A stretch of DNA of 47,234 nucleotides, taken from positions 1 to 47,234 of the IMG/VR virus record IMGVR_UViG_3300030390_002035; one strand, written 5' to 3'. Every line of letters begins with the position of its first letter. Position 1 is the stretch's first letter. Of this stretch, positions 10,981 through 30,307 are shown piece after piece. A program made the translations under genes and the position numbers. Under the pieces are notes generated by a model. It was not told where the DNA came from. It was given only the letters and a program-made list of their open reading frames with translations, and ran no database searches. This stretch comes from a virus.

Positions 10981-11160
10981 ATGTCATATAATTTAACTAA
11001 TCTTTCATTAAGAGAATTACGTGCTCTTAGAAAGTCTACTGATTATATTCCAATTACAGGTATTGATGCTATTTTTATTGGTACAATACAAGTAAAATTA
11101 AATCAGAAAATAGAAAGCATAGAAAGTACAGAAAAACTACATCAGGAAGATAATTCTTAA
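10981..11160 (+). CDS. Small hypothetical protein (59 aa)
   Basis: An ATG at 10981 opens a frame of 59 codons to the TAA at 11158-11160 (N-terminus MSYNLTNLSLRELRALRKST). It starts 6 bases after the preceding small gene and ends in the late motif ahead of the giant fibre, so it fits neatly into the array. It is predicted helical, with a charged coiled-coil-like C-terminus (KLNQKIESIESTEKLHQED). No domain is recognised. Confidence 0.6.
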   Translation: MSYNLTNLSLRELRALRKSTDYIPITGIDAIFIGTIQVKLNQKIESIESTEKLHQEDNS

Positions 11161-11174
11161 TATTTATAACAAAT
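11159..11174 (+). promoter_or_regulatory. Putative late promoter of the giant fibre
   Basis: AATATTTATAACAAAT is a clear late motif. It is unusual in standing 73 bases from the start codon, leaving a leader. Confidence 0.65.
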
Positions 11175-11232
11175 ATTACGGCCCGTGAGGGAAGTGGTCT
11201 GAATAATCAGTAGCCAACCTAATAGAATTGAT
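11175..11232 (+). promoter_or_regulatory. GC-rich structured leader of the giant fibre
   Basis: This 58-base 5' leader is far richer in G and C than other leaders here. It can form CCC-GTGA-GGG (11182-11191) and TGG-T-CTGA-ATAA-TCAG-TAG-CCA (11195-11216). It may control translation or stability of the fibre mRNA; this is inference. Confidence 0.35.
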
Positions 11233-14200
11233 ATGCCAAATTGGAAAAAAGTAATAATCAGTGGTTCTAATGCAGAATTAAATGATTTAAAATTAACAGG
11301 TCTTTCAACCCAAGGATCTGAAAATACAACACTCGTAATTAATAGTAGTGGTGAAATAGGTACAAGAGAAAATGCTGCTTCATCAGGAACAAGCGGCTCT
11401 TCTGGCTCATCAGGTTCAGATGGTTCATCAGGAACAAGTGGCTCTTCAGGTACTTCAGGTTCAAGCGGTTCAAGCGGTTCAGACGGTTCCTCTGGTACTT
11501 CAGGCTCAAGTGGTTCAGATGGTTCATCTGGAACAAGTGGCTCATCTGGAACAAGTGGCTCTTCTGGCTCATCAGGTTCAGATGGTTCATCAGGAACATC
11601 TGGTTCAAGTGGTAATGATGGTTCTTCAGGAACAAGTGGTTCAGATGGTTCATCGGGAACAAGTGGCTCTTCAGGAACATCAGGAATTTCTGGTTCTTCA
11701 GGAACATCTGGTTCAAGTGGTAATGATGGTTCCTCTGGCACTTCAGGCTCATCAGGTACAAGTGGTATAGATGGTACTTCTGGAACAAGTGGCTCATCAG
11801 GAACTTCAGGAACAAGTGGCTCTTCAGGTACAAGTGGTAATTCAGGCTCTTCAGGAACAAGCGGTTCTTCGGGATCAGATGGTTCTTCAGGAACATCTGG
11901 CTCAAGTGGTTCAGATGGTTCTTCAGGAACTTCAGGTTCTTCAGGTACAAGCGGTGCTGATGGTTCATCAGGTACATCTGGCTCAAGTGGTTCAGATGGT
12001 TCTTCAGGAACAAGTGGTTCATCTGGTACAAGCGGTGCTGATGGTTCATCAGGTACATCTGGCTCAAGTGGTTCAGATGGTTCATCAGGTACATCTGGCT
12101 CAAGTGGTTCAGATGGTTCTTCAGGTACTTCAGGTTCCGATGGTTCATCAGGAACAAGCGGTTCTTCGGGATCAGATGGTTCTTCAGGAACATCTGGCTC
12201 AAGTGGTTCAGATGGTTCTTCAGGTACTTCAGGCTCAAGTGGTTCAGATGGTTCATCAGGAACTTCAGGTTCTTCAGGTACAAGCGGTGCTGATGGTTCA
12301 TCAGGTACATCTGGCTCAAGTGGTTCAGATGGTTCTTCAGGTACTTCAGGTTCCGATGGTTCATCAGGAACAAGCGGTTCTTCAGGTAATAGTGGTACTT
12401 CAGGTTCAAGTGGAACAAGTGGCTCAGACGGGTCTTCTGGTACAAGTGGCTCATCTGGTTTATCTGGAACAAGCGGTTCTTCAGGTAATTCAGGCTCATC
12501 AGGAACAAGTGGTTCAGATGGTTCATCAGGAACAAGTGGTTCAGATGGTTCATCGGGAACAAGTGGATCATCAGGTGTTTCAGGTACAAGTGGCTCATCA
12601 GGTAATTCAGGTTCATCAGGAACATCAGGTAATTCAGGTTCTTCGGGAACTAGTGGTTCAGACGGTTCATCGGGAACAAGTGGCTCATCAGGAACTTCAG
12701 GTGTAAGTGGCTCTTCAGGAACTAGTGGTTCAGATGGTTCATCTGGAACAAGTGGTTCATCAGGAACTAGTGGTAATTCAGGTTCATCAGGAACAAGCGG
12801 TTCAGATGGTTCATCAGGAACAAGTGGTTCTTCAGGTTCATCTGGTACAAGCGGTTCTAGTGGTACTTCAGGAAATTCTGGTTCTTCAGGTAGTTCAGGT
12901 TCTTCAGGAACAAGTGGCTCTTCAGGAACAAGTGGTAACTCAGGATCAAGTGGTTCATCAGGATCAAGTGGCTCATCAGGTTCATCAGGACAAGATGGTA
13001 ATTTTGGTGGTGCTACTTTCAACTATACATTTGAATCTAATACTAATATTGGTCAAGACCCGGGTGCTGGAGATATAAGATTAAATAACTCAACACAAAA
13101 TGCCGCTACTATATCTGCTATAAGTCAGACAACAGAAGATGGTGATGATATACAATCTTTTTTAGAAAGTATTGATGCATCTACATCCGCGGTAAAAGGC
13201 CATATGAGACTAGCAGATAAATTTGCAGCAGAAAATTTTATATTATTTGCTATTTCAAATTTAACAGATCAAGGTACATATTGGACAATAAATATAAGTG
13301 AAGAAGCATCATCTGCTGCCTCACCTTTTAGTGCTAATGAAGAAATAATTGCTTCTTTTGCTTTAGTCGGAGATAGAGGAGATGATGGATCATCAGGATC
13401 ATCAGGTTCCTCAGGTTCATCTGGTAGTTCAGGTTCAAGCGGTTCCTCAGGCTCTTCAGGCTCATCAGGTTCATCTGGAACAAGTGGCTCTTCCGGAACA
13501 TCTGGTAACTCAGGTTCATCAGGAACATCAGGTAATTCAGGTTCTTCGGGAACTAGTGGTTCATCAGGTTCATCTGGAACAAGCGGTTCTTCAGGAACAT
13601 CAGGAGTTTCAGGTAGTTCAGGAACAAGTGGGTCATCAGGTACAAGTGGGAATTCAGGTTCTTCAGGTACAAGTGGAAATTCAGGTTCTTCAGGAACATC
13701 CGGCTCATCAGGAACAAGTGGTTCTTCAGGTTCATCTGGTACAAGCGGTTCTAGTGGTACTTCAGGTAACTCAGGCTCTTCGGGTTCAAGTGGCTCTTCT
13801 GGTAATTCGGGTTCAAGTGGTTCTTCAGGTTCTTCGGGAACATCAGGTTCATCTGGAACAAGCGGTTCTTCAGGAACATCTGGTAACTCAGGTTCTTCAG
13901 GTACAAGCGGTAATTCAGGTTCATCTGGAACAAGTGGGTCATCAGGAACATCTGGTAACTCAGGTTCTTCAGGTACAAGTGGTAATTCAGGTTCGTCAGG
14001 AACAAGTGGTTCTTCAGGTAACTCAGGTTCTTCTGGTTCAAGTGGAAGTTCAGGTAACTCAGGTTCTTCAGGTACAAGTGGTACTTCAGGTTCATCAGGA
14101 ACAAGTGGCTCATCAGGTACATCAGGTAACTCAGGTTCTTCTGGTTCAAGTGGAAGTTCAGGTAACTCAGGTTCTTCAGGTAGTTCAGGTTCATCAGGAA

Positions 14201-16647
14201 CAAGCGGCTCTTCAGGAACAAGCGGAACTTCAGGTTCAAGTGGAACAAGCGGTAATTCAGGTAGTTCTGGTTCATCGGGTTCTAGTGGTAATTCAGGTTC
14301 ATCAGGAACAAGTGGTTCTTCAGGAGCAAGTGGTTCATCAGGAACAAGCGGCTCATCAGGTACATCAGGTAACTCAGGTTCTTCTGGTTCAAGTGGAAGT
14401 TCAGGTAACTCAGGTTCATCAGGTACATCAGGGTCTTCAGGTAATTCAGGTTCATCAGGAACAAGTGGCTCATCAGGTACATCAGGTAACTCAGGTTCTT
14501 CTGGTTCAAGTGGCTCAAGTGGCTCAAGTGGCTCATCAGGTTCAAGTGGTACAACATCAATTACAAATAATGTTAATGATAGAGTATTAACAGCTACTGG
14601 GACATCTACAATTAATGGTGAAGCATGTTTAACATTTGATGGTAGTACACTTACAGCACAAAATTCACGTATAGACTTTGGAAAGGACAATATACAATTA
14701 GGTACATTAAGTTCTATATTAGGTGGAGAACTTAATAAAGTAATTCTGGGCGCTAGCCATACTACAATAGGAGGTGGTTTTAAAAATACAGCATCAAATT
14801 CAAGTACAGATTGTGCTTTTATAGGAGGAGGATGTGGTAATAAAGTATGTAATGCTTATAATGTAGTAGTAGGTGGTCAAAATAATAAAGCTGCAAGTAA
14901 TTATGCAGCTGTAGTCGGTGGTGCTAATAACTCAAGTATAGCATGTCATGGATTTATAGGAGCAGGTTCTGGTAATACTCTTAGTCTTGGTTGTGCAACA
15001 TCATTACTTGGAGGCTGTAGTAACACAATTGATGGTAGTGTTAACTGCTCAGTTTTATTAGGAGGTAAAGAAAATTGCATGTTTGATGGTGGTGGTTTGC
15101 CTGCTTCTTGTACCCATTATGCTTTTATAGGTACTGGTTGTAAAAATCAAATAAATACAGCAAGTTTTCAAGCTTGTTTTTCAACAATATTAAATGGATC
15201 CCATAATGAAAATCACTGTAATTTTTCTTTTATAGGAGGAGGAACAAAAAATACTTCATCTACAAGTTTTAGTGCAATTTTAGGTGGAGAACGAAATTCA
15301 ATAACAACTGAAGGGTGTGGAAAATGTTGTACTGGAAACAATTTTATTGGGGTAGGATTTCAAAATAGCATTCAGGGTGAACATCATGGAGGTGCAATTC
15401 TTAGTGGTATCTTTAATTGTATTACTGGTTCTATGGGTACTTGTGTTAATGTTATACCTTGTAATAATACAATAGTATCTGGTCAAAGTAATACTATCCG
15501 AGTTACTCAAAGAACCAACCATAATGTTATTGGTGGAGGTAGGCTTAATGTTATATGTTCTATTGGGGCTTGTGATAATAACGAATATATCTCCCCAGGA
15601 AATAATACAATAGGAGGAGGTAATGGCAATAAGATTTTTGTTTGCTCTAGAGCAGCATTTGGTACTCAAGGGGCTGCAGGAGGTAATGTTATTAATGGAG
15701 GTTTATCTAATAAAATTTGCTGTGCTAGTCACAGTCTTATAGCTGGGGGTGGTGTTAATTGCATAATATGCTGTGGATGGAACAATAATATAGGAGGTGG
15801 TCAATATAATATAATATGTAACCAAGCGGGTAGTTCTATTCTTGGAGGCTGTTCTAATACAATTTGTGCAGTTGGGGCTATACAAGATCAACATCATACT
15901 AATACTATTGTAGGTGGGAATTCAAATTCAATAGGAGCTGGTGATGGTTGTGCAATCCAAAACACAGTTGGAGGTGGTTCAGGTAATAAAATTTGTTGTT
16001 GTGGTGTTGCTAATTTTGTAGCAGGATGTAATAATTGTTTAGGTGCTGGTAGTAGTACTAATAATTCACGATTTTCAGCAGTATTTGGGTGTAATAATAA
16101 AACTTGTGCAGACCATAATTTAATGGCAGGGTATAATAATACTATAGCATCGAGTTATGATAGAACAGCTATTTTAGGTACTTATGGTAAAACTGCAACT
16201 GCAAACGATCAATTAATGGTTTGCTGTATTTGTGCTTTTGGATCTTTAAGTAAAGCTTCTGGTACATTTACAATTGATCATCCAAACCCAAGTAAAACAG
16301 AAACACATCATTTAAAGCATAGTTTTGTTGAATCACCAACAGCTGGGGATAATGTATATAGATGGGAAGTTGATATTGATGATACACTTCAAGGTGAAAT
16401 AATCCTCCCAGAATATTACAGATATTTAAATGAAAACTCTCAAGTATGGATTAATCCTGTAAATAATTTAGGTAGAGCATTTGGTATAGTAAATATTAGT
16501 GCAACAAAAGTAAAAATAACAACATCAGATCCTGGGAAATTTAATATATTAGTTATTGGAACTAGAAAAGATAAAGCAGCAGTTGAAGCTTGGAAAGGTG
16601 TTGAAGTTAAAAAAACAAAAGAAGAAAAACTTAATTATAAAGGTTAA
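11233..16647 (+). CDS. Giant tail fibre, 1804 aa
   Basis: This is the largest gene in the window. In order: N-terminal attachment domain (residues 1-48, NWKKVIISGS) shared with the fibre at 9604; a shaft of about 180 Gly-X-Y triplets; a non-repetitive domain of about 125 residues (GATFNYTFESNTNIGQDPGA onward); a second shaft of about 130 triplets; a module VLTATG...CLTFDGSTL; a solenoid of about 27 copies of (I/V/L)xGGxxN(x)I, similar to YadA-type trimeric beta-roll heads and holding about 40 cysteines; and a C-terminal domain starting SGTFTIDHPNPSKTETHHL, a type found at the end of marine phage structural proteins. It is probably the main receptor-binding or long tail fibre. The shafts contain no proline. 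Confidence 0.88.
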   Translation: MPNWKKVIISGSNAELNDLKLTGLSTQGSENTTLVINSSGEIGTRENAASSGTSGSSGSSGSDGSSGTSGSSGTSGSSGSSGSDGSSGTSGSSGSDGSSGTSGSSGTSGSSGSSGSDGSSGTSGSSGNDGSSGTSGSDGSSGTSGSSGTSGISGSSGTSGSSGNDGSSGTSGSSGTSGIDGTSGTSGSSGTSGTSGSSGTSGNSGSSGTSGSSGSDGSSGTSGSSGSDGSSGTSGSSGTSGADGSSGTSGSSGSDGSSGTSGSSGTSGADGSSGTSGSSGSDGSSGTSGSSGSDGSSGTSGSDGSSGTSGSSGSDGSSGTSGSSGSDGSSGTSGSSGSDGSSGTSGSSGTSGADGSSGTSGSSGSDGSSGTSGSDGSSGTSGSSGNSGTSGSSGTSGSDGSSGTSGSSGLSGTSGSSGNSGSSGTSGSDGSSGTSGSDGSSGTSGSSGVSGTSGSSGNSGSSGTSGNSGSSGTSGSDGSSGTSGSSGTSGVSGSSGTSGSDGSSGTSGSSGTSGNSGSSGTSGSDGSSGTSGSSGSSGTSGSSGTSGNSGSSGSSGSSGTSGSSGTSGNSGSSGSSGSSGSSGSSGQDGNFGGATFNYTFESNTNIGQDPGAGDIRLNNSTQNAATISAISQTTEDGDDIQSFLESIDASTSAVKGHMRLADKFAAENFILFAISNLTDQGTYWTINISEEASSAASPFSANEEIIASFALVGDRGDDGSSGSSGSSGSSGSSGSSGSSGSSGSSGSSGTSGSSGTSGNSGSSGTSGNSGSSGTSGSSGSSGTSGSSGTSGVSGSSGTSGSSGTSGNSGSSGTSGNSGSSGTSGSSGTSGSSGSSGTSGSSGTSGNSGSSGSSGSSGNSGSSGSSGSSGTSGSSGTSGSSGTSGNSGSSGTSGNSGSSGTSGSSGTSGNSGSSGTSGNSGSSGTSGSSGNSGSSGSSGSSGNSGSSGTSGTSGSSGTSGSSGTSGNSGSSGSSGSSGNSGSSGSSGSSGTSGSSGTSGTSGSSGTSGNSGSSGSSGSSGNSGSSGTSGSSGASGSSGTSGSSGTSGNSGSSGSSGSSGNSGSSGTSGSSGNSGSSGTSGSSGTSGNSGSSGSSGSSGSSGSSGSSGTTSITNNVNDRVLTATGTSTINGEACLTFDGSTLTAQNSRIDFGKDNIQLGTLSSILGGELNKVILGASHTTIGGGFKNTASNSSTDCAFIGGGCGNKVCNAYNVVVGGQNNKAASNYAAVVGGANNSSIACHGFIGAGSGNTLSLGCATSLLGGCSNTIDGSVNCSVLLGGKENCMFDGGGLPASCTHYAFIGTGCKNQINTASFQACFSTILNGSHNENHCNFSFIGGGTKNTSSTSFSAILGGERNSITTEGCGKCCTGNNFIGVGFQNSIQGEHHGGAILSGIFNCITGSMGTCVNVIPCNNTIVSGQSNTIRVTQRTNHNVIGGGRLNVICSIGACDNNEYISPGNNTIGGGNGNKIFVCSRAAFGTQGAAGGNVINGGLSNKICCASHSLIAGGGVNCIICCGWNNNIGGGQYNIICNQAGSSILGGCSNTICAVGAIQDQHHTNTIVGGNSNSIGAGDGCAIQNTVGGGSGNKICCCGVANFVAGCNNCLGAGSSTNNSRFSAVFGCNNKTCADHNLMAGYNNTIASSYDRTAILGTYGKTATANDQLMVCCICAFGSLSKASGTFTIDHPNPSKTETHHLKHSFVESPTAGDNVYRWEVDIDDTLQGEIILPEYYRYLNENSQVWINPVNNLGRAFGIVNISATKVKITTSDPGKFNILVIGTRKDKAAVEAWKGVEVKKTKEEKLNYKG
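11380..12999 (+). repeat. Giant fibre shaft 1, about 180 Gly-X-Y triplets
   Basis: About 1.6 kb of nine-base units encode Gly-Ser-Ser, Gly-Thr-Ser, Gly-Ser-Asp, Gly-Ala-Asp, Gly-Asn-Ser and similar. Longer supra-units recur nearly identically (for example the stretch with GADGSSGTSGSSGSDGSSG at several places), consistent with recombinational expansion. Confidence 0.9.
13369..14550 (+). repeat. Giant fibre shaft 2, about 130 Gly-X-Y triplets
   Basis: This is the second run of nine-base units. It differs in composition from shaft 1: Gly-Asn-Ser is common and Gly-Ser-Asp is absent after the first triplets, so the two shafts have evolved separately. Confidence 0.9.
14716..16200 (+). repeat. 27-copy cysteine-rich solenoid repeats
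   Basis: About 27 degenerate units of 15-25 residues have the core (I/V/L/F)(I/L/V)xGGxxNxI, for example ILGGELNKV, TIGGGFKNT, FIGGGCGNKV and TVGGGSGNKI. By hand count about 40 Cys fall in this region, several as CC or CCC. Confidence 0.8.
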
Positions 16648-23951: not shown

Positions 23952-26282
23952 ATGGCAGAAACATTAATATCTCCAGGTGTATTAGCAAGAGAAAACGACC
24001 AATCCTTTGTTACTTCGCAACCCGTTGAAAGAGGTGCGGCACTTATAGGCCCTACAGCTTTAGGTCCCGTAGAAAGACCAACTTTAATTAGTTCTTTTAG
24101 TTCATACCAAGCAATTTTTGGTGGAGCTTTACAAAGTGGATCTAATGAATATACTTATCTTACTTCTATAGCTGCAAACCAATATTTTCAAAATGGTGGT
24201 AATTCTTTATTAATAACAAGAGTAGCTTCTGGGTCAAGTGCAAATTGGAGTTCTGCAACTTCAACTACAATTCAAAATAATGTAGAATCAACAACTTCTG
24301 GTTTAGTAGGTAGTATATTTAGTGGATTACAACCAAACCAAGGTAGTGGTTCAGCAGCCCCAGCAACATATTCTAATGTAGCTTTAATAACAGGTACAGG
24401 AGCAGGATCTGGTGCTACAGCAACTGTAACAACTAGTAATTCAAATGGGATATTAATTAAAACTACTACTTTAGCAATTGCAGGCAGTGCACCAACAACT
24501 ACTTTAAATGCTACTACAGCAGCTCAAGCTATTACTACAGCAGCAGGAACAGGAGCAACAGTAACAATAACATCAGCAGGTCTTGATATTACAACAATAA
24601 CAGTAGTTCTTGAAGGAACTTTATATGTACCCGAAGAAACAGTTACAATAACAGCAGCAACATTAACTGCCCTTACAACATTAGGGACAGTAACAGGAGA
24701 TCTAACCTTTACTATTGGTCAAGCTAATGTATTAACAGAAATATCTGCTGTACAAATAGTACAAGATGGAACTGATTACGCATCAGGAAATACATTAAGT
24801 ATAGCAGCAGGAGACGTTGGTACCCCAGCTGTAGCTCCAACATTTATCTTAACAGATGCAATGATAGAAAACAATCCAGCATTTGAATTAGAAACAATTT
24901 CCGAAGGTACTGTAATGAATAATACATTCCCATTTGGATCAGATACTTCAGGTGCTCAGATAGCAGGTGGAGCATTAGTTAGTGGATCTGCTGAAAATTT
25001 AAGATGGCAAATTACAAGTGTTAATACTTCTTCAGGGGTATTTTCATTAGCAATTAGACGTGGTAATGATGATACAAATCGTCCTGTAGTATTAGAAACT
25101 TTTAATAATGTTTCATTAGACCCCTTTGCTCCAAATTATATTTCAAGAGCAATTGGTGATATTTCAACTAATTTAGTAACAGAAGGAGTAGATACTTTTT
25201 TACAAGAATCAGGATCTTTCCCACAAATTTCTAGTTATGTTAGAGTAAAATCAGTAAATTCACCTACTCCACGTTATTTTGAAAATAATGGTGTAGCAAA
25301 AAATGAATTTACAAGTTCTTTACCTCAAGCAGGATCAGGTTCATTTGATGGAGCAGTTGGTTCAAACATTCCAGTAGGTAGAGCTGCTAATTTTTACCAA
25401 AATATTAGTGTTACTGATTCACAAGGATTAGTAGGAACTGATTATACTAATGCAATTGCATTAATGGCAAATCAAGATGACTACCAATACAATGTAATAT
25501 CAGTACCAGGTTTAACAAACCAAACACATGCAGCACAAATTACTAGCTTGATGAATACTTCAATTTCTCGTGGTGATAGTATTGCTGTAATTGATTTAGT
25601 AACATATAATCAACCGATAAATACTGTAGTAAACCAAGCAGGTGGGATTGATAATAGCTATACGGCAGCATATTGGCCTTGGTTACAAACAATTGATCCA
25701 AACTCAGCACAATTAGTTTACATACCAGCATCAACATTTATACCAGGTGTATACGCGTTTACAGATGCTTCAAGTGATCCATGGTTCGCACCAGCAGGTA
25801 TTACTAGAGGAGGAATGGGACAAGTTGTTAGAGCTGAAAGAAAATTAACATCTACAAATAGAGATACTTTATATGAAGCTAATATAAACCCAATTGCAAC
25901 ATTCCCACAACAAGGAGTTGTAGTATTTGGTCAGAAAACGCTACAAAAAGCAGCATCTGCATTAGATAGAGTAAATGTACGTAGATTATTAATTACACTT
26001 AAGGATTTTATTTCTCAAATTGCTGATAATTTAGTATTTGAACAAAATACAATTGCAACAAGACAAAACTTTTTAACACAAGTTAACCCTTATTTAGAAT
26101 CAGTACAACAAAGACAGGGATTATTTGCTTTTAAAGTAGTAATGGATGAAAATAATAATACACCAGATGTGATAGATAGAAATGAGTTAATAGGACAGAT
26201 TTTCTTACAACCAACTAGAACAGCTGAATTTATATTATTAGATTTCAATGTATTACCAACTGGAGCAACTTTCCCAGCATAA
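23952..26282 (+). CDS. Tail sheath protein, gp18-like
   Basis: This 776-aa contractile sheath subunit wraps the tail tube and drives injection. The N-terminus SPGVLARENDQSFVTSQPVE and the following ERGAALIGPTALGPVERPTL, then FGGALQSGSNEYTYLTSIAA and NSLLITRV, are the classic start of gp18-type sheaths. The C-terminus (FPQQGVVVFGQKTLQKAASA, LDRVNVRRLLITLKDFI, FLQPTRTAEFILLDFNVLPTG) is the conserved inner domain that forms the sheath mesh. It is longer than T4 gp18 (659 aa): an Ala/Thr-rich insert of about 180 residues (about 131-310) sits where outer, variable domains of sheath proteins usually lie. Confidence 0.95.
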   Translation: MAETLISPGVLARENDQSFVTSQPVERGAALIGPTALGPVERPTLISSFSSYQAIFGGALQSGSNEYTYLTSIAANQYFQNGGNSLLITRVASGSSANWSSATSTTIQNNVESTTSGLVGSIFSGLQPNQGSGSAAPATYSNVALITGTGAGSGATATVTTSNSNGILIKTTTLAIAGSAPTTTLNATTAAQAITTAAGTGATVTITSAGLDITTITVVLEGTLYVPEETVTITAATLTALTTLGTVTGDLTFTIGQANVLTEISAVQIVQDGTDYASGNTLSIAAGDVGTPAVAPTFILTDAMIENNPAFELETISEGTVMNNTFPFGSDTSGAQIAGGALVSGSAENLRWQITSVNTSSGVFSLAIRRGNDDTNRPVVLETFNNVSLDPFAPNYISRAIGDISTNLVTEGVDTFLQESGSFPQISSYVRVKSVNSPTPRYFENNGVAKNEFTSSLPQAGSGSFDGAVGSNIPVGRAANFYQNISVTDSQGLVGTDYTNAIALMANQDDYQYNVISVPGLTNQTHAAQITSLMNTSISRGDSIAVIDLVTYNQPINTVVNQAGGIDNSYTAAYWPWLQTIDPNSAQLVYIPASTFIPGVYAFTDASSDPWFAPAGITRGGMGQVVRAERKLTSTNRDTLYEANINPIATFPQQGVVVFGQKTLQKAASALDRVNVRRLLITLKDFISQIADNLVFEQNTIATRQNFLTQVNPYLESVQQRQGLFAFKVVMDENNNTPDVIDRNELIGQIFLQPTRTAEFILLDFNVLPTGATFPA

Positions 26283-26324: not shown

Positions 26325-26813
26325 ATGGCAGTATTAAACCCAAACGAAATATTTTTCACAGCATTTGAGCCAAAACAAAAGAATAGATTTATTGCTTTTG
26401 TAGATGGATTCCCAGCATATATTATGAAGGGAGTTGGAGCTGTAACCGTATCACAAGGAACAGTACCTTTAAATCATATTAACGTTCAACGTTTTGTAAA
26501 AGGTAAAACAACTTGGGGAACTATTCAGTTCACATTATTTGATCCAATTACTCCATCTGGTGCACAATCAGTAATGGAATGGGTTAGACTACATCATGAA
26601 TCAGTAACTGGTAGAGATGGTTATAGTGATTTCTATAAGAAAGATCTTACAATCAATGTACTAGGACCTGTAGGTGATATTGTATCAGAATGGATCATCA
26701 AAGGAGCAATGATTACAGAAGCTTCATTTGGAGATTTTGGATGGGATCAAGAAAATGCTGCTCAAGAAATTACAATGACAGTTCAACCAGATTACTGTGT
26801 ATTAAATTTCTAA
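26325..26813 (+). CDS. Tail tube protein, gp19-like
   Basis: This 162-aa protein is the subunit of the inner tail tube through which DNA passes; T4 gp19 is 163 aa. Typical strands are NRFIAFVDGFPAYIMKGV near the start, GKTTWGTIQFTLFDPITPSG in the middle, and the C-terminal WIIKGAMITEASFGDFGWDQ and ITMTVQPDYCVLNF. The order sheath then tube is as in T4. A strong terminator follows, so the abundant tube message can end here. Confidence 0.95.
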   Translation: MAVLNPNEIFFTAFEPKQKNRFIAFVDGFPAYIMKGVGAVTVSQGTVPLNHINVQRFVKGKTTWGTIQFTLFDPITPSGAQSVMEWVRLHHESVTGRDGYSDFYKKDLTINVLGPVGDIVSEWIIKGAMITEASFGDFGWDQENAAQEITMTVQPDYCVLNF

Positions 26814-26843: not shown

Positions 26844-26869
26844 GCTTGGCTTTGCCAAGCTTTTTTTTT
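26844..26869 (+). terminator. Intrinsic terminator after the tail tube gene
   Basis: The perfect 7-bp stem GCTTGGC / GCCAAGC with loop TTT is followed by 9 T. Confidence 0.9.
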
Positions 26870-26918: not shown

Positions 26919-27662
26919 ATGAGTGAATTTAAATTCCCAACGGAAGAAATAGAACTACCATCTAAAGGTTTAGTATATTCAAAAGACAATCCCCTATCAA
27001 GTGGTAAAGTAGAAATTAAATATATGACTGCTAAGGAAGAAGATATTTTATCTAACCAAGCATATATTGAAAATGGTACAGTATTAGATAAACTTTTAGA
27101 TTCTGTAATAGTTTCTAAATTTAATACTAAAGACCTTATTATAGGAGATAAAAATGCAATCTTAATTGCAACTCGTATACTAGGATATGGGTCAGATTAT
27201 AAAGTAGCAATTAATGGTAAAGTACAAGAAATTGATTTATCAGAGTTAGAAAATAAACCATTTGATGAGTCTACAATGCTAGAAGGTAAAAATGAATTTG
27301 CCTTTACTTTGCCTCATAGTAACACTAAAGTTACTTATAAAATTTTAGATGGACATGATGAGAAAAAAATTGAAAGAGAATTAAAAGGACTTAAAAAATT
27401 AAATAAAAATGCTTCTCCCGAAGCATCTACTAGATTAAAATATACATTAACTTCTGTCAATGGAGAAACTGAAGCAAAAGACATCAGAGAATTTGTTGAT
27501 AATTATTTTTTAGCACGTGATGCTAGAGCATTTAGAGATCATTTAAGACAAACACAACCAGATGTAGATCTTAATGTAATTCTAGACAGCGGAGAGGAGG
27601 TAACCGTGCCCATTGGGCTTAGCTTTTTTTGGCCTGACTTCGGAGACGGCGCCTCAAATTAG
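26919..27662 (+). CDS. T4 gp26-type baseplate / tail-chaperone-like protein
   Basis: This 247-aa protein begins FPTEEIELPSKGLVYSKDNP and KVEIKYMTAKEEDILSNQAY, the pattern of the T4 base plate family (gp26 type): a Pro-Ser-Gly start, an MTAKEED motif, then a domain with ILGYGSDYKV. It ends IGLSFFWPDFGDGASN. Its position between tail tube and tape measure is that of tail-assembly chaperones (lambda G/T) in other phages. Its last 50 bases overlap a second ORF in the +1 frame, and a run of seven T at 27624-27630 lies in the overlap. I infer that most ribosomes stop at 27662 and a fraction shift into the second ORF. From about 27585 the codons become GC-rich, unlike the rest of the gene. Confidence 0.82.
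   Translation: MSEFKFPTEEIELPSKGLVYSKDNPLSSGKVEIKYMTAKEEDILSNQAYIENGTVLDKLLDSVIVSKFNTKDLIIGDKNAILIATRILGYGSDYKVAINGKVQEIDLSELENKPFDESTMLEGKNEFAFTLPHSNTKVTYKILDGHDEKKIERELKGLKKLNKNASPEASTRLKYTLTSVNGETEAKDIREFVDNYFLARDARAFRDHLRQTQPDVDLNVILDSGEEVTVPIGLSFFWPDFGDGASN
27591..27660 (+). other. Probable programmed ribosomal frameshift site (+1 or -2)
   Basis: Elements in order: GGAGAGGAGG (27591-27600), a Shine-Dalgarno-like run in a genome otherwise lacking them; the small hairpin GCCC-ATT-GGGC (27608-27618); the slip run TTTTTTT (27624-27630), read TTT TTT TGG in frame 0 and TTT GGC after a shift; then GC-rich DNA to 27655. The second ORF has no ATG near its start. Direction and efficiency cannot be told from sequence alone. 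Confidence 0.6.
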
Positions 27663-27924
27663 GTTAAGTATATTTAAACAAATCCATGAAATAGTTTTTC
27701 ATGGAAAAGGTGGATACGATTACGCTACTATATATCATATGCCGTTATGGCTTCGTAAATTTACATTTAAAGAAATAAATGATTATTATGAGGCAGAACA
27801 AGCAGCACTAAAAAAGGAACAAACAGGTGGAAAAACATCACTTATAGATTCAGAAGGTAAAATAAATACCCCTCAATTTAAACAAGCATCTAAAGCATAT
27901 GAGGGAAAGAGCAGCTACAAATAG
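27613..27924 (+). CDS. Tail-chaperone extension ORF, probably made by frameshift
   Basis: This ORF of up to 103 codons would begin with a TTG at 27613; its first ATG (27739) would remove the conserved core. That core, KQIHEIVFHGKGGYDYATIY and then HMPLWLRKFTFKEINDYYE, resembles the end of tail-assembly chaperone or T4-baseplate-family proteins ('MPxxLRxF'). A +1 or -2 slip at the seven T would fuse it to the upstream protein, giving about 334 residues. As a separate protein it could start at TTG, with AGGAGG 12 bases upstream, which I cannot exclude. The stop codon lies inside the stem of the following terminator. Confidence 0.72.
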   Translation: MGLAFFGLTSETAPQIRLSIFKQIHEIVFHGKGGYDYATIYHMPLWLRKFTFKEINDYYEAEQAALKKEQTGGKTSLIDSEGKINTPQFKQASKAYEGKSSYK

Positions 27925-27935
27925 CTGCTTTTTTT
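27911..27935 (+). terminator. Intrinsic terminator overlapping the stop codon
   Basis: The 7-bp stem GCAGCTA / TAGCTGC with loop CAAA is followed by 7 T. The TAG stop (27922-27924) is part of the 3' arm, so translating ribosomes could hinder folding and couple termination to translation. Confidence 0.85.
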
Positions 27936-27936
27936 C

Positions 27937-27961: not shown

Positions 27962-30307
27962 ATGGCGGCTAACCCAGAATTAGAAAAAGGAAAAAAATTA
28001 TTAAAAGATCAAACTGATGAAGTTGGTTTTTTAGACAATGCCTTTAAGTCATTAGCTGCCACTATATCTACTACTTTAGAAGATGCTATTGACCAAATGA
28101 ATGGTCTAGATACAATCACTAAAAAAGTAGCACAATCATATCAAAAAGATATAGCAAATTCCATTAAAAAAACAACTTCAGGTTTAGAAGAAACAATTGC
28201 CCTTCAATTAAAAATTAAACAAGGTGTAAATGTTGAAGCTGATCTTAAGAAAAAAATGGATGCTCTTGAGGTTAGAAGAATAGCTACCCTTAAAAAAATT
28301 ATGATGGCTGGTAAAGAACTAGGCATTGATACTATGGAGTTAAAGGTTCAATTAAAGGAACAATATGATCTTGAGCTAAAGCTTCTTGGAGCTATGAAAA
28401 AACAAAATGCTGAAACTCAAAAAGCAAAACCTTTATTTCAACTACTTAAAGAAAATGCTGGAAGTATAGCAGATAAAATAGATAAATCCGGTACTTTATC
28501 TAAAGTATTAAAGGGAGGGATTGGTTCTGTTCTTACACCAATGAGGTTATTAGAATTAGCTATAGTCGGGGTATTTGATGCTATGACAGCAATAGATAAA
28601 CAAAATGGTAAATTAGCTAAAAATCTTAATATTAATGTATCAGAGGCAGCTGCTCTATCTAGTAAACTTTCAACAGCAGCAAATAATTCAGGTGAATTAT
28701 CAATTACCACCTTAGGATTAGGCGAAGCATTAATGGCTGCTAATGGTGAGTTAGGAATATTTAATACAACTATTGATGATAATTTAATATTATTTGAAAA
28801 ATTACATAAAACAGCAGGCCTAACTTATGGGGAATTAAAAGGTGTTAAATCTATTACAGATGCCACGGGTGGTGATTTAGAGAAAAATACTAAAGAAATA
28901 ATGGCTCAAGCCCGATTAACGGGGCAAAAGTTTGGAGTTGCTTTAAACGAAAAAGAAGTATTAAAAGATATTAGTAATGTATCTAAAGCTACTACATTAT
29001 CATTAGGTAAAAACCCGGGTCAAATTGCTAATGCAGTTGCAGCTACTAAAGCTTTAGGTATGGAAATGTCTAAAGTAGAAGGTATAGCTGATAGTTTACT
29101 TAATTTTGAATCATCAATCGAAAAAGAATTAGAAGCAGAATTACTATTAGGTAAAGACATTAATTTAGAAAAAGCAAGACAAGCAGCTTTAAACAATGAT
29201 ATAGCAGGTGTAGCAGAAGAAATAGCTAAACAAGCAGGTTCAGCAGCTGATTTTGGAAAAATGAATAGAATACAACAACAAGCATTGGCTGATGCTGTTG
29301 GGATGTCTAGAGAGGATTTAGCTAGTTCTTTATTTGTACAAGAACAAATTGGTAATCTTACAGGTGAAGAATATAAATTAAGAGAAAAACAAATTAAAGG
29401 ACTTCAAGCAGAAGGATTATCCCAAGATGAAATTAAAGCAAAATTAGGAAAACAAAGTATAGAGGATTTAAAAAATCAAAATAGTGTTCAAGAAAATTTA
29501 AATAAATCAGTTTCTAAAATGAAAGAGGTATTTATGAGCATAGCAGCCCCTTTAATGCAGATTATAACCCCAATAGTAGAATTATTAATACCTGCACTCC
29601 AATCTATTCAATTTATATTAGCTCCTGTTTTCGATACCTTTAAAGGTATTGCGGGTATATTAACAGGTAATATAGAAAGTTTAGGTACTATGGAAAAAAT
29701 AATGGGGGGTATTGGTATTGCAGCTTTAGCCTATTTAGGTGTAATTAAATCAATTGCTCTATACAAGGGTATTATGGCAGCGAGAGATGGAACTGCTTTA
29801 TTAACACAAACTGCAATTCTTGCTTTAGAAAAATCTAAAAAGAAGGGTATACTTTCAACCATAGGTGCTATGACAATACAGTTAGGGATCCAATTAGGGA
29901 TATTAAGTGCCTCTTTAGCATCTAACGCAGCAGTTACTTTTGGTATAGGTGTTGCTATTGCTGTAGCAGCTGCAGCTGCAGGTTATGCAGCAATAAAAGC
30001 TTTAACCGGTGATGACATAATGTCACCAGGATCAAATTCATCTGGATATGGTTCTAGAACATTATTTGGCCCAGAAGGTGCAATAGCATTAAACAATAAA
30101 GATACAGTTATAGCAGGTACAAATTTATTTAAAGGAAATGATGTAGTATCATCACCAGCAGGAGCAATTCAAATGCCAGATAACTCAGAAGCAAAAAGAA
30201 CAAATCAATTATTACAATCACTCATTAATAGACCTGAACCTAAAGTACAAATGGATTCAATTGAAGTTGGTACCGTAGCAGGAATGAGTGCATTCTCTAT
30301 ACAATAA
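27962..30307 (+). CDS. Tape measure protein
   Basis: This 781-aa protein probably sets tail length and sits inside the tube. The N-terminal half is helical and coiled-coil-like (for example KKVAQSYQKDIANSIKKTTS and QLKEQYDLELKLLGAMKKQN). The C-terminal half has the hydrophobic segments typical of tape measures: about 520-556 (SIAAPLMQIITPIVELLIPA), 583-605 (GIGIAALAYLGVIKSIALYK) and 655-683 (TFGIGVAIAVAAAAAGYAAI). It ends in a Gly-rich tail with GPEGAIALNNKDTVIAGTNL, a segment familiar from tape measures of marine phages. Position right after the chaperone-like pair supports the call. The T4 equivalent gp29 is 590 aa. Confidence 0.85.
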   Translation: MAANPELEKGKKLLKDQTDEVGFLDNAFKSLAATISTTLEDAIDQMNGLDTITKKVAQSYQKDIANSIKKTTSGLEETIALQLKIKQGVNVEADLKKKMDALEVRRIATLKKIMMAGKELGIDTMELKVQLKEQYDLELKLLGAMKKQNAETQKAKPLFQLLKENAGSIADKIDKSGTLSKVLKGGIGSVLTPMRLLELAIVGVFDAMTAIDKQNGKLAKNLNINVSEAAALSSKLSTAANNSGELSITTLGLGEALMAANGELGIFNTTIDDNLILFEKLHKTAGLTYGELKGVKSITDATGGDLEKNTKEIMAQARLTGQKFGVALNEKEVLKDISNVSKATTLSLGKNPGQIANAVAATKALGMEMSKVEGIADSLLNFESSIEKELEAELLLGKDINLEKARQAALNNDIAGVAEEIAKQAGSAADFGKMNRIQQQALADAVGMSREDLASSLFVQEQIGNLTGEEYKLREKQIKGLQAEGLSQDEIKAKLGKQSIEDLKNQNSVQENLNKSVSKMKEVFMSIAAPLMQIITPIVELLIPALQSIQFILAPVFDTFKGIAGILTGNIESLGTMEKIMGGIGIAALAYLGVIKSIALYKGIMAARDGTALLTQTAILALEKSKKKGILSTIGAMTIQLGIQLGILSASLASNAAVTFGIGVAIAVAAAAAGYAAIKALTGDDIMSPGSNSSGYGSRTLFGPEGAIALNNKDTVIAGTNLFKGNDVVSSPAGAIQMPDNSEAKRTNQLLQSLINRPEPKVQMDSIEVGTVAGMSAFSIQ

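Follow-up and report, generated by a model that had tools for sequence, protein, structure and literature searches.

A conserved junction in T4-related phages probably joins short and long tail chaperones by programmed +1 frameshifting

The DNA analysed here is a window of 47,234 nucleotides within a virus record of 62,142 bases (IMG/VR record IMGVR_UViG_3300030390_002035), and includes a series of tail genes. The tail sheath gene (23952–26282) lies 5′ of the gene for the tail tube protein (26325–26813, plus strand; phrog_4542 tail tube, E = 2e-24), which is followed on the same strand by two overlapping open reading frames (ORFs). ORF1 (26919–27662) has an ATG start, encodes 247 amino acids and is a putative short tail assembly chaperone (TAC-N/gpG-like) of the T4 gp26/gp51 family. 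ORF2 has no start of its own and is open from 27604 to its stop codon at 27922–27924, in the +1 frame relative to ORF1. Directly 3′ of the pair lies, again on the plus strand, the probable tape measure gene (27962–30307, 781 amino acids), assigned by its position and length and by the annotation of relatives: Flavobacterium phage immuto and Listeria phage LIS04 have an annotated tape measure gene in the matching position. Pfam and PHROG matches back the gene order from tail sheath over tail tube to ORF1/ORF2. Two terminator-like sites on the plus strand, both identified by consensus match only, are found between the tail tube gene and ORF1 (26844–26869) and at the end of ORF2 (27903–27936); since they bracket ORF1 and ORF2, the pair looks like a single unit. 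Elsewhere in the window, positions 11233–16647 contain a very long ORF (1804 amino acids) and, in other frames and on the opposite strand (e.g., 11157–13022 and 13269–14690, both minus), several further long open frames, which suggests a repetitive or periodic composition of that region.

The initial annotation had proposed that a programmed frameshift (+1 or −2) joins two tail-chaperone-like ORFs between tail tube and tape measure, the second ORF lying in the +1 frame, overlapping the first by 50 bases and lacking an ATG. These features are borne out by the window: the overlap is 50 nucleotides if counted from the TTG at 27613 and a few more if counted from the opening of the frame, there is no ATG in ORF2 ahead of its conserved domain, and the overlap contains the run TTTTTTT at 27624–27630. 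The 3′ end of ORF1 reads ...GTG CCC ATT GGG CTT AGC TTT TTT TGG CCT GAC TTC..., in which TTT TTT TGG (27624–27632, plus strand) is the putative shift site, with a core that is invariant in relatives apart from the variants given below; the base directly 5′ of the T run is a C (27623). The P-site codon TTT 27627–27629 would slip to TTT 27628–27630, whereby T27630 is passed over, and the part of ORF2 read thereafter (27631–27924, plus strand; 97 amino acids, beginning GLTSETAPQIR) would form the C-terminal extension of a long chaperone (TAC-NC/T-like domain).

ORF1 matches phrog_150 (E = 9e-9), which T4 gp26 and gp51 match at 7e-71 and 3e-84, respectively. Against PF12322 it scores below the gathering cut-off, whereas its relatives from Bacillus phage SP-15, Streptococcus phage GXN1 and Rhodothermus phage RM378 pass it. 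From these profile matches (phrog_150, PF12322) ORF1 can be assigned to the T4 gp26/gp51 family. The structures of the ORF1 and ORF2 products were predicted apart; the AlphaFold model of ORF1 is confident (pLDDT 89) and the model of ORF2 is helical and of moderate confidence. For residues 1–92 of ORF1 the top two matches among solved structures were YqbN (Z = 5.5) and the HK97 tail assembly chaperone 2ob9 (Z = 4.7), which are modest scores at values where caution is advised; as modelled, the N-terminal domain is similar to this HK97 protein. A Foldseek search with the ORF1 model returned no PDB entry at E under 0.001, and a sequence search of solved structures returned no match. Among viral predicted structures, ORF1 was matched by T4-like baseplate hub assembly proteins and by the hub subunit of SP-15.

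Unfused ORF1 products that match phrog_150 to their end stop at profile position about 235 (233 in the case of Microcystis phage Mel-JY01), whereas gp51 continues to 280. The fused Mel-JY01 product aligns to position 274 of 282 and thereby enters the extension of phrog_150 that only gp51 has, the gain being only 2 bits. Profiles of ORF1 and ORF2 gave no significant match to the single T4 gp26 and gp51 sequences, ORF2 being too diverged from gp51. It appears probable that the products of ORF1 and ORF2 function as chaperones. In the cultured relatives examined, ORF2 is systematically mis-annotated or missed: it is annotated from an internal start in immuto and SP-15, as a separate overlapping gene in Mel-JY01, and not at all in LIS04. 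Loci in which ORF2 falls into an annotation gap are L082 (4151–4261), L083 (4001–4237), L086 (3312–3431) and L271 (2230–2459).

The relation between the two frames is highly conserved. A first search of IMG/VR yielded 80 loci, in all of which ORF2 is in the +1 frame. Wider searches, each with at least 600 rows, were made with an alignment of ORF2 and, independently, with ORF1 of Mel-JY01; because the latter used ORF1 alone, the frame of ORF2 played no part in the selection of its matches. Among the matches listed, ORF2 is in the +1 frame in 242 of 242 loci when profiles of both domains are used, and no in-frame fusion of the two ORFs, which would have pointed to a simple indel in the window, was found in any relative. 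With relatives added and identical junctions removed, the +1 relation holds for 208 of the 210 distinct junctions among the matches listed, the two exceptions being L261 and L266. As judged from these comparisons, the arrangement is far beyond chance. A plain indel or sequencing error had been considered as well and is excluded by the 208 concordant junctions.

The site itself is no less conserved. Among the matches listed, 182 of 190 distinct junctions read TTT TTT TGG CCT, three CTT TTT TGG, two TTT CTT TGG and two TTT TTT TAC, the remaining one being that of the jumbo-phage L084; the core TTTTTTTGGCCT is present in 182 of the 190. In a Winogradskyella-associated contig the site reads TTT TTT TTC CCT. 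In 44 of these 190 junctions the ORF2 frame opens only 8 nucleotides 5′ of TGG and in 107 the ORF1 stop follows 12 nucleotides downstream, which confines the shift to about 20 nucleotides. No ATG, GTG or TTG precedes the ORF2 domain in 47 of the 190, so that ORF2 is unable to start alone there. The check for conservation at synonymous sites that the initial annotation had suggested gave a clear result: in 61 independent pairs, substitutions 5′ of the site fall predominantly on codon position 3 of ORF1 (506 versus 224 and 115) and those 3′ of it on position 3 of the +1 frame (456 versus 160 and 85), the frame thus changing at the T run, and the 12-nucleotide core shows zero substitutions. From the first post-slip codon on, G and L are invariant in the ORF2 domain. 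The GC-rich codons after the site, which had been read as a sign of selection on the RNA, are instead accounted for by the amino acids that the +1 frame specifies (Gly-Leu-Thr-Pro): GGCCTGAC(GCC) is kept after the T run because this frame encodes Gly-Leu-Thr(-Pro), and an explanation at the RNA level is needless. Frame relation, site and constraint on the site are evident from the comparison of these sequences. The apparent +1 shift seems to be shared by many T4-related phages, most of them phages of marine Bacteroidota. Relatives of the ORF pair were also found on contigs (L273–L276) that had been binned to genomes of Flavobacteriaceae, Flavobacteriales and Winogradskyella, which hints at marine Bacteroidota as hosts.

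The reading that we favour, with a probability of roughly 0.87, is that a programmed +1 ribosomal frameshift yields a short and a long tail chaperone in this T4-related phage. It would be the ribosome rather than another process that shifts, and in a product ratio that we infer most ribosomes would read ORF1 to its stop and produce the short chaperone. In some ribosomes at AGC UUU UUU UGG, the A site would hold UGG while peptidyl-tRNA-Phe is paired with the second UUU; this tRNA would re-pair on the UUU one base downstream, so that GGC would be decoded in place of UGG and ORF2 translated, giving a long chaperone of 334 amino acids (...PIGLSFF-GLTSETAPQIR...). By analogy with gpG/gpGT of phage lambda, the short form may coat the tape measure protein and the extension may recruit tail tube subunits. 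The predicted +1 junction peptide is SFFGLTSETAPQIR with two Phe, that of a −2 shift SFFFGLTSETAPQIR with three; for the product of phage immuto a +1 shift predicts the tryptic peptide FFPEDGPDGGVDIPIGVSFLGLTPEYR, and a −2 shift the same peptide but with SFLFGL.

The same frame would be entered, with one extra Phe, if the ribosome slipped by −2 on the T run as in phage Mu. The run of seven Ts allows such a slip, which would need the same Ts, so that the main clade by itself leaves +1 versus −2 undecided. Throughout this clade the codon 5′ of the P site ends in TT, as a −2 shift needs: it is TTT or CTT and in 0 of 105 clusters TTC, although TTC makes up 20% of the Phe codons in ORF1 (p about 5e-11 assuming independent clusters, which they are not fully). 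A bare P-site model of +1 slippage requires neither the upstream TTT/CTT nor the C or G that precedes the T run in 92% of the 105 clusters (as against a GC3 background of about 20% in ORF1), and neither coding nor simple re-pairing accounts for this C or G. The TTT CTT variant does not speak decisively against −2, since UUC would let tRNA-Leu re-pair; it was therefore dropped as proof, and the clade with TTC TTT TGG is the better test.

It is the more distant relatives that favour +1 and settle the direction as far as sequence allows. In L251–L260 and L262–L265 the junction reads GG(C/T) TTC TTT TGG CCT, the T run is just four long and the frame of ORF2 is again +1; re-pairing is possible there only for a +1 slip on UUU_U, whereas for −2 the tRNA-Phe would have to pair with UCU; in nine of these loci (L251–L259) a TAG shuts the ORF2 frame directly 5′ of the site. 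The sites of GXN1 (TTC TTT CGT) and L084 (AAC TTT CTA) permit +1 (UUU to UUC) but not −2, a slip at TTT_CTA being the only one possible in L084. Also the sites in SP-15 (TTT TTT CAC), LIS04 (TTT TTT AGT, with the preceding TTT_T serving) and RM378 (TTT TTT TGG AAT) fit a +1 shift; in GXN1, SP-15, LIS04 and RM378, ORF2 was assigned from frame and position, without a profile match. The conserved cassette thus has a P site able to re-pair at +1, namely YTT followed by T or, in distant relatives, by C, and an A-site codon that is TGG, TAC or TTC across relatives. We therefore consider a −2 shift unlikely.

Still less probable are two explanations that dispense with a ribosomal shift. If RNA polymerase slipped on the T run, the result would be mixed mRNAs, one U shorter or two longer, that are translated normally. 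The phage is AT-rich and has a run of seven Ts, and loss of one T would give the product of a +1 shift, but such a run is short for known polymerase slippage and the relation of the ORFs persists where the run is interrupted to TTTCTTT (L081, L082) or has just four Ts (the L251 group). Equally improbable is that ORF2 is an independent gene that is translated by coupled or internal initiation, e.g., at TTG 27613, without any fusion. Such a start could be pictured in the window, where a GGAGG lies 12 nucleotides 5′ of this TTG, and three relatives (L261, L266 and L088) indeed have an ATG-started ORF2. Against it stand the many relatives with a stop in the ORF2 frame just 5′ of the T run, the junctions noted above that lack a start before the domain, the constraint in the +1 frame, which begins right at GGC, and the finding that the slip motif is gone where ORF2 has an ATG. 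Both the site and the joining of the two ORFs, as initially proposed, are thus strongly supported by the relatives, which of the two directions favour +1.

Stimulators of the putative +1 shift are less uniform than the site, and their not being universal is a point against this reading. The Shine-Dalgarno-like element GGAGAGGAGG (27591–27600, plus strand), about 26 nucleotides 5′ of the P-site codon, and the small hairpin GCCC-ATT-GGGC (27608–27618, plus strand), likewise 5′ of the site, are both located where the initial annotation had them. In many relatives GAG GAG GTN has a raised GC3 and suppressed synonymous change, but the element is absent from several loci, e.g., L053 and L056. Compared with synonymous shuffles, the hairpin region has excess stability in about half of the 105 clusters, versus 3–9% for control stretches, which is a moderate signal; the hairpin region of the window itself is not stronger than dinucleotide shuffles. 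Nor are the 70 nucleotides 3′ of the site in the window more stable than shuffles, as would be expected of a downstream stimulatory structure. GGAGG and hairpin may have an accessory role, the hairpin not a universal one, and one might conjecture that looping out of the hairpin brings the Shine-Dalgarno sequence nearer to the ribosome. The cassette looks minimal, consisting of UUU_U plus a short context.

Other states of the junction provide natural controls. In L261 (TTC TTG TAT CCT) and L266 (TTC CTT TGG CCA), ORF2 has its own ATG just past the ORF1 stop and is in the other frame. A good separate start, which would have spoken against a shift, was found only in these two and in L088, whose downstream ORF is ATG-started too, and in all three the slip motif is decayed or absent. 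In a tree of 50 sequences L261 and L266 group with L082 and L081, which have the TTT CTT variants (support 100/98); deep placements in this tree are on long branches and were not relied on. The state in L261 and L266 reads as a stepwise decay of the motif after an ATG had made the shift needless. Agrobacterium phage Atu_ph07 and L250 have T_TTT_TTC, a classical −1 motif, and a downstream ORF that lies in the −1 frame, their protein family being the same as that of ORF1, and in T4 itself gp26 and gp51 are separate genes on opposite strands. The −1 arrangement was seen at L272 (1501–2286) and L250 (2001–3104), the direction of the shift varying within one protein family. It is somewhat probable that the gp26/gp51 family of T4-like phages contains an undescribed, widespread +1 cassette (UUU_U in a C/G-T7-GGCC context) besides −1, two-gene and ATG-restart states, that the direction of the shift has switched within the family, and that its loss was stepwise (TTT TTT T to TTT CTT T to TTC CTT TGG CCA plus ATG).

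Frameshifting in tail chaperone genes is general in long-tailed phages, shifts of −1, −2 and +1 being on record and T4 being excepted (PMC5009743). The junction described here resembles that of lambda gpG/gpGT (Xu, Hendrix and Duda, 2004; PMC5009743) in its position between tail tube and tape measure, in the shift near the end of ORF1 and in the startless ORF2; it differs in that the shift would be +1 rather than −1, that ORF1 is of the T4 gp26/gp51 family and that UUU_U takes the place of a tandem −1 heptamer. With T4 gp26/gp51 it shares phrog_150 and PF12322, gp51 being a protein like the short form plus a C-terminal extension, but two opposite-strand genes in T4 stand against one gene with a +1 shift here. 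According to papers citing Vladimirov et al. (2022, Virology 566:9), some T4-like phages use two genes instead (PRFect, PMC10274946) and poly-T −1 signals are attributed to T4-like phages (PMC12846349). The −1 poly-T sites, e.g., GTTTTT in the tail chaperone genes of Vandenendeviridae (PMC12846349) and those of Atu_ph07 and L250, are similarly T-rich and also lie where the short chaperone ORF ends, for Atu_ph07 and L250 even within the same protein family, but work in the opposite direction, with T_TTT_TTC and a downstream ORF in the −1 frame.

Mechanistically, the closest parallels are bacterial RF2 (CUU_UGA_C) and yeast Ty1 (CUU_AGG_C), where a P-site YUU re-pairs one base on; CUU_UGG_C is among the variants found here, and the overlapping +1 codon is GGC as in Ty1. 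Weak E-site pairing favours the +1 shift at RF2 (PMC5009743). The present slip would work like those of RF2 and Ty1, yet the site is not an RF2 cassette: the A site holds no stop codon, there is no Shine-Dalgarno sequence at 3 nucleotides, the similar element being about 26 nucleotides upstream, and the gene concerns phage structural assembly rather than autoregulation or Gag-Pol. Shifts of +1 in phage structural genes are very likely in the tail chaperone gene of the haloarchaeal myovirus HSTV-2, thus in the same kind of gene, and occur at CCC_U in coat and tail genes of Listeria phage PSA (PMC5009743); both sites differ from UUU_U.

The initial annotation knew of no described case in T4-like phages. 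For −1 this has to be amended in view of the poly-T signals ascribed to Vladimirov et al. (2022) by PMC12846349; for +1 it stands, in that our literature search, which covered Vladimirov et al. (2022) through citing papers, found no +1 shifting in the gp26/gp51 family. Tail chaperone frameshifting itself is known, and what looks new is a conserved +1 class in this family. T4 is the named exception to tail chaperone frameshifting, but relatives of T4 do appear to carry a shift, and in the rarer +1 direction. Since −1, +1, separate-gene and ATG-restart states occur within one protein family, gain, reversal and loss of frameshift signals become directly testable, and the minimal-looking cassette would be useful for the study of +1 slippage in bacteria, above all in Bacteroidota.
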